From contig CALVAW010000008.1 of NCBI GenBank assembly GCA_944325655.1, positions 1-53,983 on the forward strand: DNA of 53,983 nucleotides, given 5' to 3'. Of the stretch, positions 94 through 53,983 are shown one piece after another. Both the position numbers and the translations under genes were made by a program. Below the pieces are notes generated by a model that ran no database searches, was not told where the DNA came from, and saw only the letters and a list, made by a program, of their open reading frames with translations. The first letter of the stretch is position 1. The number at the start of each line of letters is the position of its first letter. Source of the stretch: Candidatus Gastranaerophilales bacterium. Lineage in GTDB: Bacteria > Cyanobacteriota > Vampirovibrionia > Gastranaerophilales > Gastranaerophilaceae.

Positions 94-417
94 TTATATA
101 TTAAATCTAATTGTATTATAAAATTTATAAATCAAATCCAATAATTTTTCATCATTTTTTACAGCCTGAATCAACTCGGAAATCATCTCGTCAGGAGTTT
201 TTTTACTATCAAACCTATATAATTCATAAGGTTCAACATTTAAAGCATCTGCAATTTTTTTGAATGTATCTATTGAAGGTGCAAATTTTCCACACTCAAT
301 ATAACTTATATTTGGAGTTCCTATGCCGACTATCTCAGCAAGTTTTTCTTGAGTAAGGTTTCTGGCTTTTCTAATAGATTTTATTCTATTTCCCAATAAT
401 TTTTTTATATCATTCAT
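94..417 (-). CDS. XRE/Cro-C1 family helix-turn-helix regulator
   Basis: 107 aa DNA-binding protein. The HTH_3 fold occupies about residues 8-65: IKSIRKARNLTQEKLAEIVG forms helices 1-2, and GTPNISYIECGKFAPS contains the recognition helix. It is followed by the usual family continuation (TFKKIADALNVEPYELYRF). The C-terminal 40 residues are a short acidic helix, probably for dimerisation. The ATG at 417 has no clear Shine-Dalgarno. The gene is divergent from the cysteine-rich pilin-like gene at 549, and a 10-base inverted repeat in the shared promoter region is a candidate operator. Control of itself and of the pilin gene is inference. Solitary XRE proteins can also belong to phage or toxin systems, but no partner gene is present here. 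Confidence 0.87.
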   Translation of the reverse strand: MNDIKKLLGNRIKSIRKARNLTQEKLAEIVGIGTPNISYIECGKFAPSIDTFKKIADALNVEPYELYRFDSKKTPDEMISELIQAVKNDEKLLDLIYKFYNTIRFNI

Positions 418-460
418 AATAAACCCAAAAATATTCTCGCTTAGAAAAACTTATTTTTTA

Positions 461-512
461 ATACTATATAATAATATTTTTTTTGTTGAAATTTAATGTT
501 ATATAGTATAAT
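461..512. promoter_or_regulatory. divergent promoter region with a 10-base inverted repeat
   Basis: ATACTATATA at 461-470 is repeated as its exact reverse complement at 500-509. On the plus strand TTGAAA (486-491) and TATAAT (507-512), 15 bases apart, form a promoter for the pilin-like gene. On the minus strand TATAGT (complement of 463-468) is a possible -10 for the regulator gene. The repeat arms overlap both -10 elements, so one dimeric regulator could cover both. The sequence is AT-rich and chance is not excluded. Confidence 0.45.
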
Positions 513-548
513 ATTAATTAGTAGTATTATAAAAAAACTGGATTTATA

Positions 549-2387
549 ATGTATAACATTAACAAACAAAATAAAACCAAAAAAAATATAGGATTTTCCT
601 TAATTGAACTTATGATTAGTTTAATTACAATAAGCTGCATAGCAGCAGCATTTACGCCTGTACTTACAAAAAAATTAGAAAAAACAAATGTATCAATATC
701 TCTAAACGGACTAACGGTAGATTGCAAAAAATACGGAGATGACTGCTCTTTATGTCAAAGTAATAAATGTGTTTCTTGCTTAAAATATTGCGGCAGTAAT
801 GAATATAAAAATATAGAAAAATGCGTATGCGAAGCCTGTACGGATAGAAGCTTGGGGTGTCTTGAATGCGATGCCGACAGCTGCAGAAAATGTAAAACAG
901 GATACGGTATCACAGCAGACGGCAAATGTGAATTATGTCAAGCAGGACATTACTCCTCAGGAACGGCAAATTGTAAACCTTGTCCTATAGGACAATATCA
1001 AAATGAAAGCGGAAAAGATAATTGTATACTATGTCCCATAAGACAATATCAAAATTCAACAGGGCAAAGTTCCTGCAAAATATGTGGAAACGGAAAATAC
1101 CAAGATTCAACAGGTCAAAGCTCATGTAAAACTTGTCCTGAAGATAATTATTGTACATCAGGGAATAAAACCCCATGCCCCACAGGACAAGGAGCAAATT
1201 CCGGAAGCTCGGTTTGCACAAGCTGTTCAAGCAAAATATCAAACTGCTCGGAATGTTCAAATCTGACACAATGCAGCAAATGTAGGAGCGGTTATTACAT
1301 AAATTCAAGCAAAACATGTACAAAATGCACGGCAGGCTACTATTGTAACGGAATAACGCAAACAAAATGTTCAGCAGGTCAATATTCTTCAGCAGGAGCT
1401 TCAAGCTGCACCGCCTGCAGCAGCGGCTATTATCAAAATCTAACAGGTCAAACAAGCTGTAAAACATGTTCAACTTTAACTTCAAACTGTTCAAATTGCA
1501 ACTCAACAACAGGAACTTGTACAGCTTGTGCAAATAAATACTACATAAATTCAAAAACTTGCACACTGTGCCCTGCGGGATATAAATGTGTTAATAATTC
1601 AAAAACTCAATGTGCAGCAGGAGAATATTCAGCAGCAGGCTCGCAAAGCTGCACAAAATGTGCAAACGGATATTACAGCGCAGCCGGTTCTTCAAGCTGC
1701 AGCAAGTGCTCAAGCAAATGGGCAAATTGCGCAACTTGCACAAATAGCGGATGTAGCTCTTGTAAATCAGGATATACTTTAAATTCAAGTAAACAATGTG
1801 TATCAACCTTTAGCTGCACAGGAGATTTTCTCCAAATAGGAAATATATGCGTAACCAAATACAATATGGGCGATAGACCCGCTTTTACAATACCTTTGAC
1901 TGTAAATTTACATTCTATAAACGCATATTGCAACTCAAACAGTCAAAATTGTTGCTGGTTTGGGAAAACAGGAGCTAGATGCAATGCAAATAACGGAGGC
2001 TATTCAGGATGTAACAGGACTGTCTGCAATTACTATGCCGCAAAAGAAATATGCGATAAATTCAATTACGGCGGAAAAACCTGGAGATTACCTACAGAAA
2101 GAGAACTTGCTTATTGGGACGATTATAATATTGGACGAGGTAGTAATGGATTAATGCTATGCAGCAGGACAGTTATTGACAGTAGAAGTACCGAATGCGC
2201 AATGTATTGTGTCTGTCCTGGAGCACCAGATAACTGCTGTTTATCAAATACAATTTGGTCAAACAAAATTACAAGTGCAACATCAACCTATACATTTCAT
2301 AAATGGGGGCAAGCTGATTGGACCGGACCAGTTTCAAATAAAAATAATAACGCTTTTTCAGTACGATGTGTAACTGATATGAACTAA
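549..2387 (+). CDS. prepilin-like Cys-rich repeat protein with DUF1566-like C-terminus
   Basis: 612 aa. Residues 11-21 (KKNIGFSLIEL) are a type III/IV prepilin signal: cleavage after G15, F16 at +1 and E20 at +5, followed by a hydrophobic helix to about residue 35. The export route is therefore a type IV pilus or pseudopilus platform. Residues about 55-425 hold roughly 55 cysteines in repeated units of the form GxYxxxxGxxxCxxC (at least eight copies), alternating with NCxxC...CxxC units. These resemble the GCC2/GCC3 and furin/VSP-like repeats of eukaryotic surface proteins. Residues about 440-612 look like a DUF1566/Lcl-type domain (WRLPTERELAYW near 512, ending in FSVRCVTD). The start is supported by a good -10 at 507-512, but the Shine-Dalgarno (GGA) is weak. 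A surface adhesin or receptor role is inference. A related C-terminus appears at 53944-53983. Confidence 0.9.
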   Translation: MYNINKQNKTKKNIGFSLIELMISLITISCIAAAFTPVLTKKLEKTNVSISLNGLTVDCKKYGDDCSLCQSNKCVSCLKYCGSNEYKNIEKCVCEACTDRSLGCLECDADSCRKCKTGYGITADGKCELCQAGHYSSGTANCKPCPIGQYQNESGKDNCILCPIRQYQNSTGQSSCKICGNGKYQDSTGQSSCKTCPEDNYCTSGNKTPCPTGQGANSGSSVCTSCSSKISNCSECSNLTQCSKCRSGYYINSSKTCTKCTAGYYCNGITQTKCSAGQYSSAGASSCTACSSGYYQNLTGQTSCKTCSTLTSNCSNCNSTTGTCTACANKYYINSKTCTLCPAGYKCVNNSKTQCAAGEYSAAGSQSCTKCANGYYSAAGSSSCSKCSSKWANCATCTNSGCSSCKSGYTLNSSKQCVSTFSCTGDFLQIGNICVTKYNMGDRPAFTIPLTVNLHSINAYCNSNSQNCCWFGKTGARCNANNGGYSGCNRTVCNYYAAKEICDKFNYGGKTWRLPTERELAYWDDYNIGRGSNGLMLCSRTVIDSRSTECAMYCVCPGAPDNCCLSNTIWSNKITSATSTYTFHKWGQADWTGPVSNKNNNAFSVRCVTDMN

Positions 2388-2416
2388 TTTTTCATATTAT
2401 TTTTGTGTTTTGGTTA

Positions 2417-2443
2417 GGGATGTTATATACATCCCGTTTTTTT
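2417..2443 (+). terminator. terminator of the Cys-rich pilin-like gene
   Basis: Perfect 7-bp stem GGGATGT/ACATCCC (2417-2423 with 2429-2435), five-base loop, then G and seven T's. It lies 30 bases after the stop codon, before the tRNA promoter. Confidence 0.87.
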
Positions 2444-2763: not shown

Positions 2764-3243
2764 ATGGAAATACAAAGCAATAATACCGCAAAAAATGCCA
2801 GTATTGTAGCGGGAGTTGGAGCTATAATATCTGGTGCAGGCGAAGTTATTAAACAAAAAAAGATTTTTGCACATCCCGATGAATTCATCAGAAATACTGA
2901 AGCATTTATTGCTAAAGAAAAGAATTTTGCAAATTCCTTTTATATGGGAACAAAAGAAGCGGCAGATGCAGCAAGAAAAAAACTTGATGACTATTTAGAA
3001 CAAGCTAAGAAGTTTGCAAAAAGCGGCAAATATGATTATAAAACAATTGCAAGAAAAGCTGCTAAAGGCGGATTAATGGGCTTAGCAGTTGTTTTAGGAT
3101 TTGAATTAATAAGAAAACTTATTATTAAAGGCGCAGTCGAAAACAAAAAAATTGAAAAAGAAATTGCAACAAATCCCGAAGTAGTCAATGCAACAAAAGA
3201 AATAGAACAAGCAACAGGCGCAATCGCAGTCCAAAAAGTATAA
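2764..3243 (+). CDS. small glycine/alanine-rich membrane-associated protein, unknown
   Basis: 159 aa, not recognised. The start has a strong Shine-Dalgarno (AAAAGGGGG, 8 bases before the ATG) and a terminator follows. Two hydrophobic, glycine-rich segments can be seen: residues 12-27 (ASIVAGVGAIISGAGE) and about 99-121 (AKGGLMGLAVVLGFELIRKLI). A charged, probably helical linker lies between them, and the C-terminal helix is Lys/Glu-rich. There is no signal peptide. It could be a two-helix inner-membrane or membrane-shaping protein. It stands alone between a tRNA and a convergent operon, so context does not suggest a function. Confidence 0.82.
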   Translation: MEIQSNNTAKNASIVAGVGAIISGAGEVIKQKKIFAHPDEFIRNTEAFIAKEKNFANSFYMGTKEAADAARKKLDDYLEQAKKFAKSGKYDYKTIARKAAKGGLMGLAVVLGFELIRKLIIKGAVENKKIEKEIATNPEVVNATKEIEQATGAIAVQKV

Positions 3244-24487: not shown

Positions 24488-25696
24488 TTAATTTTTCGCT
24501 CTTTTTTCAGCAAGGTCAATTTTTTCGATAAGTTCCTCATAAGGCATGCCGCCCATATAAAACACCCCGTTGATAACCAAAGCCGGAGTACCGTTTAAAT
24601 TTAAGCGACCCGCCTTTTCTATATCATTCATAAGCTCTTTAGTTATTTCAGGACTGTTGACATCACTCATCAATTTATCCATATCAATTTTTAATCTTGC
24701 TTTTTTTATTCGCTCGTTAATCTCCTCCGGAGTTTGCGGATGATAATCAAAAAGCACATTGCTAACGCCCCAAAGCTTGCCTTGCTTTTTTGCAGCCAAT
24801 GCATATCTTGAATACAAACAAGAATTTTCATGTCCGCCGAGGGTATTAAATATTTTCGGATTACACGATGTATCCAAAGGAAAATTAACTTCTTTTACAA
24901 GAATTTTGCCTTCTTTGGCTATTTTATGCAACATAATATTTAAAACTCTGCAAAACGGACAATTAAAATCACTATATACCTCGACAACAACTTTAGCATT
25001 TTCATCTCCTAAAACATTGCCTTTTATTGCATATTTATTATATTTTGCATCAAAAAATTCCTTCATTGTCTTTTCTTTTTTCAACTTTGGAGACAAAATC
25101 AAACTTTTATCCAAATAAATAAGAATTGAAACAAAAGAAAATAAAACAATCAAAAATAAAATAAAATATTTTTTTGCGCCTTCTATAAAATCTTTGATTG
25201 TGGTTTTAATGTCTTCAACAAAAAAACCTTTATTTTTCGCAATTAAAGCAATAAACAAGTCGACAAAATATGTACAAAAACAAAGAACACATATTTTGTT
25301 AATTTTAAATATAGAAATAAAAGCTAATATCATTGAAATAGCAAAAGACAAAAGACCCAAAACAGCTATATAACTTCTTGGATTTTTAAAAACATCAAAT
25401 ATCGTATTTTTAAACTTTGCTTGAATTCTGTCAACAAATAAAAGCATTAGCATCACGCAGTATAATATCAAACCCCACAAAGCATTTGGAACACCAAAAG
25501 AAAGACTGTATGAGGTTTTAGAAACACCGTCGCAATCAATTAATTCAGAAACCGAACAAAAACTCGGTATATATGCTTCTAAAAAATTTGTTTTATAAAA
25601 AATATAGCTTAATTCTACACAAAGGCCAATTCCAATCAAAACTAAAATTAATATTGCAATCCAACGGGTTTTTGAAAATTTAAAATCGTTTTCCAT
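24488..25696 (-). CDS. VKOR-thioredoxin (DsbA-like) fusion, disulfide-forming oxidoreductase
   Basis: 402 aa. Residues 10-200 form a helical VKOR domain with the loop cysteines C47 and C55 and the quinone-site CVLC (C136, C139). Residues about 225-400 form a periplasmic thioredoxin/DsbA-like domain with CPFC (C246, C249) and a cis-Pro loop (NGTPALVING). The fusion oxidises exported proteins to form disulfides and passes electrons to quinone, doing the jobs of DsbA and DsbB in one protein. Such fusions are typical of Cyanobacteria and some other phyla. Shine-Dalgarno AGAGGAAAG. First of an operon with queH. The very Cys-rich pilin-like protein at 549 is an obvious potential client (inference). 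Confidence 0.95.
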   Translation of the reverse strand: MENDFKFSKTRWIAILILVLIGIGLCVELSYIFYKTNFLEAYIPSFCSVSELIDCDGVSKTSYSLSFGVPNALWGLILYCVMLMLLFVDRIQAKFKNTIFDVFKNPRSYIAVLGLLSFAISMILAFISIFKINKICVLCFCTYFVDLFIALIAKNKGFFVEDIKTTIKDFIEGAKKYFILFLIVLFSFVSILIYLDKSLILSPKLKKEKTMKEFFDAKYNKYAIKGNVLGDENAKVVVEVYSDFNCPFCRVLNIMLHKIAKEGKILVKEVNFPLDTSCNPKIFNTLGGHENSCLYSRYALAAKKQGKLWGVSNVLFDYHPQTPEEINERIKKARLKIDMDKLMSDVNSPEITKELMNDIEKAGRLNLNGTPALVINGVFYMGGMPYEELIEKIDLAEKRAKN

Positions 25697-53921: not shown

Positions 53922-53943
53922 AAAACACAAAATAATATGAAAT

Positions 53944-53983
53944 TTATTCTGTATCCATTTCTGTAACACAGCGAACAGAAACA
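53944..53983 (-). CDS. C-terminal tail of a second Cys-rich pilin-like/DUF1566-type protein (partial)
   Basis: Only the last 12 codons and the stop lie in the window. They read VSVRCVTEMDTE, which nearly matches the end of the 549-2387 protein (FSVRCVTDMN). A minus-strand terminator follows it. The 5' part is outside, so its length, prepilin signal and Cys-rich core cannot be seen, but a paralogue of the first gene, or another protein with the same DUF1566-like domain, is the direct reading. Confidence 0.7.
   Translation of the reverse strand, partial: VSVRCVTEMDTE

Follow-up and report, generated by a model that had tools for sequence, protein, structure and literature searches.

Some minor or tip subunits of type IV pili carry a pilin head joined to a large C-terminal module. 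In the pilE/pilS system of Neisseria, pilin is expressed from a single locus, the further cassettes being silent, and a Sma/Cla repeat lies behind the gene (PMC4023411). The VSGs of Trypanosoma brucei form a large family of variable surface proteins, whose genes share a short conserved element in the 3' UTR, the VSG 16-mer (PMC5698767). We analyzed a stretch of 53,983 nucleotides (hereafter the window) from a Candidatus Gastranaerophilales MAG (G000; 1.69 Mb in 58 contigs, 98.8% complete), in which the open reading frame at 549-2387 (+) encodes a cysteine-rich protein of 612 aa with a prepilin head. In our judgment this gene is probably one expression site in a multi-locus, recombining family of surface proteins with type IV pilin heads. 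More tentatively, and with slightly less than even confidence, we propose that the family forms an undescribed surface-variation system, in which upwards of a dozen fixed sites, each with a private regulator, exchange cassettes reaching from the head to a 3' element, giving combinatorial, pilus-displayed, cysteine-rich binders. A literature search of partial coverage returned no description of this family.

These loci resemble Neisseria pilE/pilS in being pilin genes with a constant N-terminal and a variable C-terminal part, in having a conserved element 3' of the genes (here a different and shorter one), and in showing an ancestry compatible with gene conversion. They differ from it in that most of the sampled members have a start and a regulator of their own, and in that the bodies are whole different sets of domains. 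No silent cassette array was seen among the loci read, where gaps in the MAGs could hide cassettes. The T. brucei VSGs are likewise a family of variable surface proteins with a short conserved 3' element, but that system is eukaryotic, with monoallelic telomeric expression, and the two share no homology. By analogy, the Sma/Cla repeat could serve as a model for a role of the 3' element in DNA, whereas the VSG 16-mer would suggest a role in RNA stability. Many CxxC motifs, cysteine-rich units and a multigene organization are shared with the Giardia VSPs (PF03302), from which the present proteins differ in scoring under the cut-off of the VSP model and in their anchor, an N-terminal prepilin helix. 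Known minor and tip pilins are set apart from them by the cysteine-rich rod, the number of loci and the private XRE regulators found here.

Table 1. Coordinates of the features of the family locus and of related features in the window.
Feature	Position	Strand	Basis or remark
XRE/HTH_3 regulator, 107 aa, divergent from the prepilin gene	94-417	-	HTH_3 E 2.8e-15
Intergenic region between XRE and prepilin genes; promoters for both, probable operator	418-548		operator role predicted
Prepilin leader, residues 1-15, last residue Gly15	549-593	+	sequence, N_methyl
Mature N-terminal pilin helix FSLIELMISLITISCIAAAF and linker (constant head)	594-722	+	model, identity profile, shared head DNA
Cysteine-rich rod, residues 59-430, Ephrin_rec_like / TNFR-like units	723-1838	+	Pfam, PDB matches, model
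Lcl_C/DUF1566-like C-terminal module, commonest tail type in the family	1839-2384	+	PF07603 under cut-off
Conserved 3' element, core ATATTATTTTTGTGTTTT at 2394-2411	2388-2416	+	exact core 12 times in genome
Intrinsic terminator, GGGATG...CATCCC and T-run	2417-2443	+	stem sequence differs among members
VKOR-DsbA fusion, general disulfide-forming enzyme	24488-25696	-	link to rod putative
Second family member, 3' end, cut by contig end (ends SVRCVTEMDTE, stop)	53922-53983	-

Of the 73 cysteines in the protein, 57 fall within residues 51-430; the total agrees with the roughly 70 given in a first-pass annotation of this DNA, and residues 59-430 hold 23 CxxC motifs (mean 8.6, maximum 19 in 2000 shuffles). 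The same annotation had described a prepilin head with the motif GFSLIE, and this was borne out. As in type IV prepilins, a short basic leader (ending ...KKNIG) is followed by a GFxxxE motif with Glu at +5 and by a hydrophobic helix, FSLIELMISLITISCIAAAF; the N_methyl model (PF07963; cut-off 21.2 bits) was passed in the genome scan at 26.0 bits, and in the protein scan the score of 21.1 bits fell just under it. From the GFxxxE rule, in which the cut follows the Gly, cleavage is predicted before Phe16. Five stretches of the rod matched Ephrin_rec_like (PF07699) at 53.2 bits, against a curated cut-off of 23.1, whereas the Giardia VSP model gave 15.2 bits against 31.4 (paralogue L025, at 26.1, is also under), so that the earlier description of the repeats as eukaryote-like stands for the ephrin-receptor type and is not supported for the VSP type. 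The best matches to the rod among PDB sequences were the Chlamydomonas mastigoneme protein Mst1, ELAPOR1 and Eph receptors, and a fold comparison with the rod model returned the same proteins, which are eukaryotic and have neither a prepilin head nor an Lcl_C tail; rods of this cysteine-rich kind are otherwise best known in animals and protists. Structure prediction, which the first-pass annotation had suggested as a check, modeled the rod well (AlphaFold pLDDT about 80-93 over most of its length) and placed the head helix at residues 18-44 with low pLDDT; both of the two models run had low confidence in the C-terminal tail. A DUF1566-like end had been proposed as well, and the tail does match Lcl_C/DUF1566 (PF07603) weakly (E 4.5e-7, 30.6 bits, cut-off 34.9), with a conserved core GYSGCxRTVC...WRLPT, while paralogue L044 exceeds the cut-off at 40.8 bits. 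A diversity-generating retroelement, a candidate prompted by this type of tail, was rejected: RVT_1 had no match in the 98.8%-complete genome, and a search for a template repeat of the 3' end of the gene gave short, chance-level matches only.

The host genome encodes a prepilin peptidase (PilD), PilB and two PilT-like ATPases, with genes for PilC and a secretin adjoining that for PilB, and it holds about 34 prepilin-like heads. The objection that the first-pass annotation had raised against its own reading, namely a genome with no prepilin peptidase and no pilus genes, therefore fails. That annotation had also linked the VKOR-DsbA gene of the window to the disulfides of the protein. The fusion is real and could act as the oxidant of the rods, but a special role was not upheld, as 53 of 58 relatives have exactly one copy, some of them in genera that lack the family, and this order-wide single-copy distribution argues against a dedicated partnership.

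A dedicated divergent XRE regulator, also claimed in the first-pass annotation, turned out to be the norm in the family. The genome has 28 HTH_3 genes, 13 of which are divergent from a prepilin head within about 430 bp, compared with about 0.2 such pairs expected under random placement. In nine more, the 5' side faces a contig end no more than 240 bp away; at seven of these a start codon or prepilin leader is found at the break, and three reach the AFS(L) of a head. Some of the 13 partners are ordinary prepilins of 250-270 aa, so the pairing is wider than the cysteine-rich members. Across a sample of 17 genomes, 83 heads had sufficient sequence upstream, and at 62 of these a divergent XRE gene was present; its absence from about a quarter of members counts against the expression-site reading. 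Because the XRE profile used was seeded from the same loci, the Pfam HTH_3 count is the independent one. The AT-rich region between the two genes of the window contains inverted repeats (e.g., 461-481/489-509, ATACTATATAATAATATTTTT / AAATTTAATGTTATATAGTAT), and sigma-70 matches in it were no commoner than in shuffles. No 5' DNA motif common to all family promoters was found. One glycine-rich member with a diverged head and the 3' element (L032 1623-3446, G000 C1) has as its divergent neighbor a different DNA-binding-like protein of 196 aa.

About twenty genes for pilin-type surface proteins occur in the genome, many of them with cysteine-rich rods, and the bodies of members span 400-1100 aa. 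Their tails are of several kinds, namely one to four Lcl_C-like modules, Gly_rich_2 or further cysteine repeats. A query with the whole protein matched 27 of 28 genomes of the same genus and 4 of 30 from other genera, where E was never better than 1e-11, and in an order-wide profile search, matches with E better than 1e-10 were confined to that same genus. The named relatives found by an alignment query were Candidatus Gastranaerophilales MAGs, one of them from goat caecum; an alignment scan of viral contigs and a protein-query scan of a named genome collection returned no relatives. At the far end, the window is cut within a second family member, which has its own 3' element at 53922-53938 and then a terminator at about 53920-53901, so that both ends of this contig lie near family genes. 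Many contig ends in the genome fall near family genes. Between heads, identical residues use the same codon at only about half of positions, so conversion is not constant; the idea that constant conversion keeps the heads near-identical holds for some and was rejected as a general account, since codons differ in most pairs.

Behind the genes we found a conserved 3' element of roughly 20 nt (consensus ATRTTATTTT(T)nGTGTTTT), mostly 8-45 nt past the stop codon and followed by a terminator hairpin with a variable stem. An exact-pattern scan gave 12 copies in the focal genome, all 12 behind family genes, with Lcl or glycine-rich ends; elsewhere in the genus there were up to 15 per genome, and outside it three matches in 30 genomes, while a reversed-pattern control gave at most one match per strand in any genome. 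In relaxed form, the element follows 32 of 56 complete members, with unrelated tails, compared with 1 of 37 window ORFs of at least 150 aa. It is commoner beside XRE-paired genes (27 of 39, versus 4 of 15; Fisher P 0.006). Some members are without it, which is a point against the cassette reading. A function as a site-specific recombinase site is disfavored because the T-run between the halves of the element varies.

The ancestry of the regulators and that of the bodies do not agree. The XRE proteins form groups in which each genome is represented once, except for two G008 heads that share one regulator, and some groups share further flanking genes, such as a triosephosphate-isomerase-like gene at L129 and L136. 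In 25 pairs with orthologous regulators, median identity was 0.84 for the XRE protein and 0.38 for the body, and the class of body differed in 18. Of 30 bodies compared, 1 had its closest match at the same regulator locus (random expectation 1.3) and 22 had it within the same genome, although matching of bodies is noisy given the repetitive cysteine rod. Across the head, similarity between species tracked the locus as far as the cleavage site; beginning with the first mature-pilin codon, it tracked the genome. A tree of the Lcl tails had mostly by-genome clusters, with weak support. The genomes in these comparisons were picked by similarity and are assumed to be MAGs, like the named relatives.

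Such a mismatch could have arisen with no exchange of cassettes if the members are old, fast-diverging paralogues subject to birth and death, with strong selection on the body, while the short regulators evolve slowly. A head conserved in protein and not in codons would fit that history, as would bodies that have diverged even where regulators match, and one clear tail has been retained at its locus, in the G022/G020/G025 group. It accounts poorly for unrelated classes of body (Lcl, Gly, Cys-only) behind orthologous regulators, for best-matching bodies that lie mostly in the same genome and for a crossover of identity that is sharp and located at the head. Two G008 paralogues, near-identical N-terminally, with repeat indels in mid-protein and divergent tails, also speak against it, and we consider paralogue divergence alone an unlikely explanation, if one that deserves serious weight. 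Assembly could mimic swapping in a different way: where heads are identical, short-read assemblers may join a promoter with the wrong body. Many contigs do stop exactly in heads, and of 53 intact genes, 13 are identical to a sister over at least 77 nt in the head region. However, the genes without an exact 40-mer in common with a sampled sister gave the same answer (closest body at the own locus in 0 of 12), and at long shared stretches the assemblers had broken the contigs. The subset comparison lowers the risk and keeps some of it, and we regard such an artefact as quite improbable.

Two further explanations concern the protein rather than its history. The prepilin head might be an inner-membrane anchor or export signal, with a rod that is periplasmic or released and never built into a pilus. 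The size of the bodies, very large for pilins, favors this, and that a subunit of 612 aa must still get through the secretin weighs against our preferred reading; the main type IV pilus genes, the many prepilin-like heads in the genome and the retention of GFxxxE with Glu at +5 point toward the pilus instead, and we judge a non-pilus role unlikely, though by no means negligible. Alternatively, there may be no special system here, the gene encoding an adhesin of an ordinary kind or a surface protein that was acquired laterally from a eukaryote. Its repeats are indeed like eukaryotic ephrin-receptor-like and mastigoneme modules, but the genus-wide multi-locus arrangement, the regulators and the common 3' element make this very improbable.

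Under the reading that we prefer, a recombining family of pilin-headed proteins, each site would consist of one gene governed from a divergent promoter by a small XRE protein, a putative repressor, and private regulators would let members be expressed separately. PilD would cut the leader, and the hydrophobic N-terminal helix would then dock the protein in the type IV pilus, where it would probably serve as a minor subunit or at the tip. Braced by disulfide bonds, the rod would hold away from the cell a variable end that consists of one to four Lcl_C-like domains, of a glycine-rich domain or simply of more cysteine repeats; this end may bind a target in the gut. Over evolutionary time, cassettes with the conserved head at one end and the conserved 3' element at the other would be swapped or converted between sites, presumably by homologous recombination, so that regulators stay put while the displayed protein changes; switching within the lifetime of a cell may conceivably occur as well.

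The more surprising findings, absent from the first-pass annotation, are the size of the family, the 3' element that its genes have in common and the disagreement between regulator and body ancestry. If our proposal is correct, these uncultured, non-photosynthetic cyanobacterial relatives in animal guts vary their surface by swapping complete bodies among pilin loci that are each under separate control, and pilin variation would then include, in addition to the Neisseria model, a form that operates over many sites. It would also account for the poor assembly of such genomes at the same genes, and would make the XRE operators, the 3' element and the Lcl_C ends targets for studies of attachment to hosts, food or other cells.

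Several minor features were observed in the family genes of relatives. In G008, prepilin-headed ORFs of 97-118 aa lie directly upstream of large cysteine-rich members (L111 771-2741, L112 2348-4399, L117 1025-2614). Two near-identical paralogues of that genome have frameshifts, and one has a truncated small head, which may reflect decay, phase variation or sequencing error. A repeat of about 154 nt with long inverted arms (CTTCTTTTCGGTTCACTTTTCTTC...) is found 3' of several family genes of G025 (L124 3060-3213, L125 176-329, L126 196-349, L129 440-593, L133 879-1032), followed in some cases by another short prepilin-head start (MKKGFSVLEL). Within the window itself, positions 1-40 resemble by eye the last part of a 5S rRNA gene, for which Rfam reported no match, and a gene at 2764-3243, behind a tRNA-Ser(GGA), encodes a protein of 159 aa with no Pfam match.
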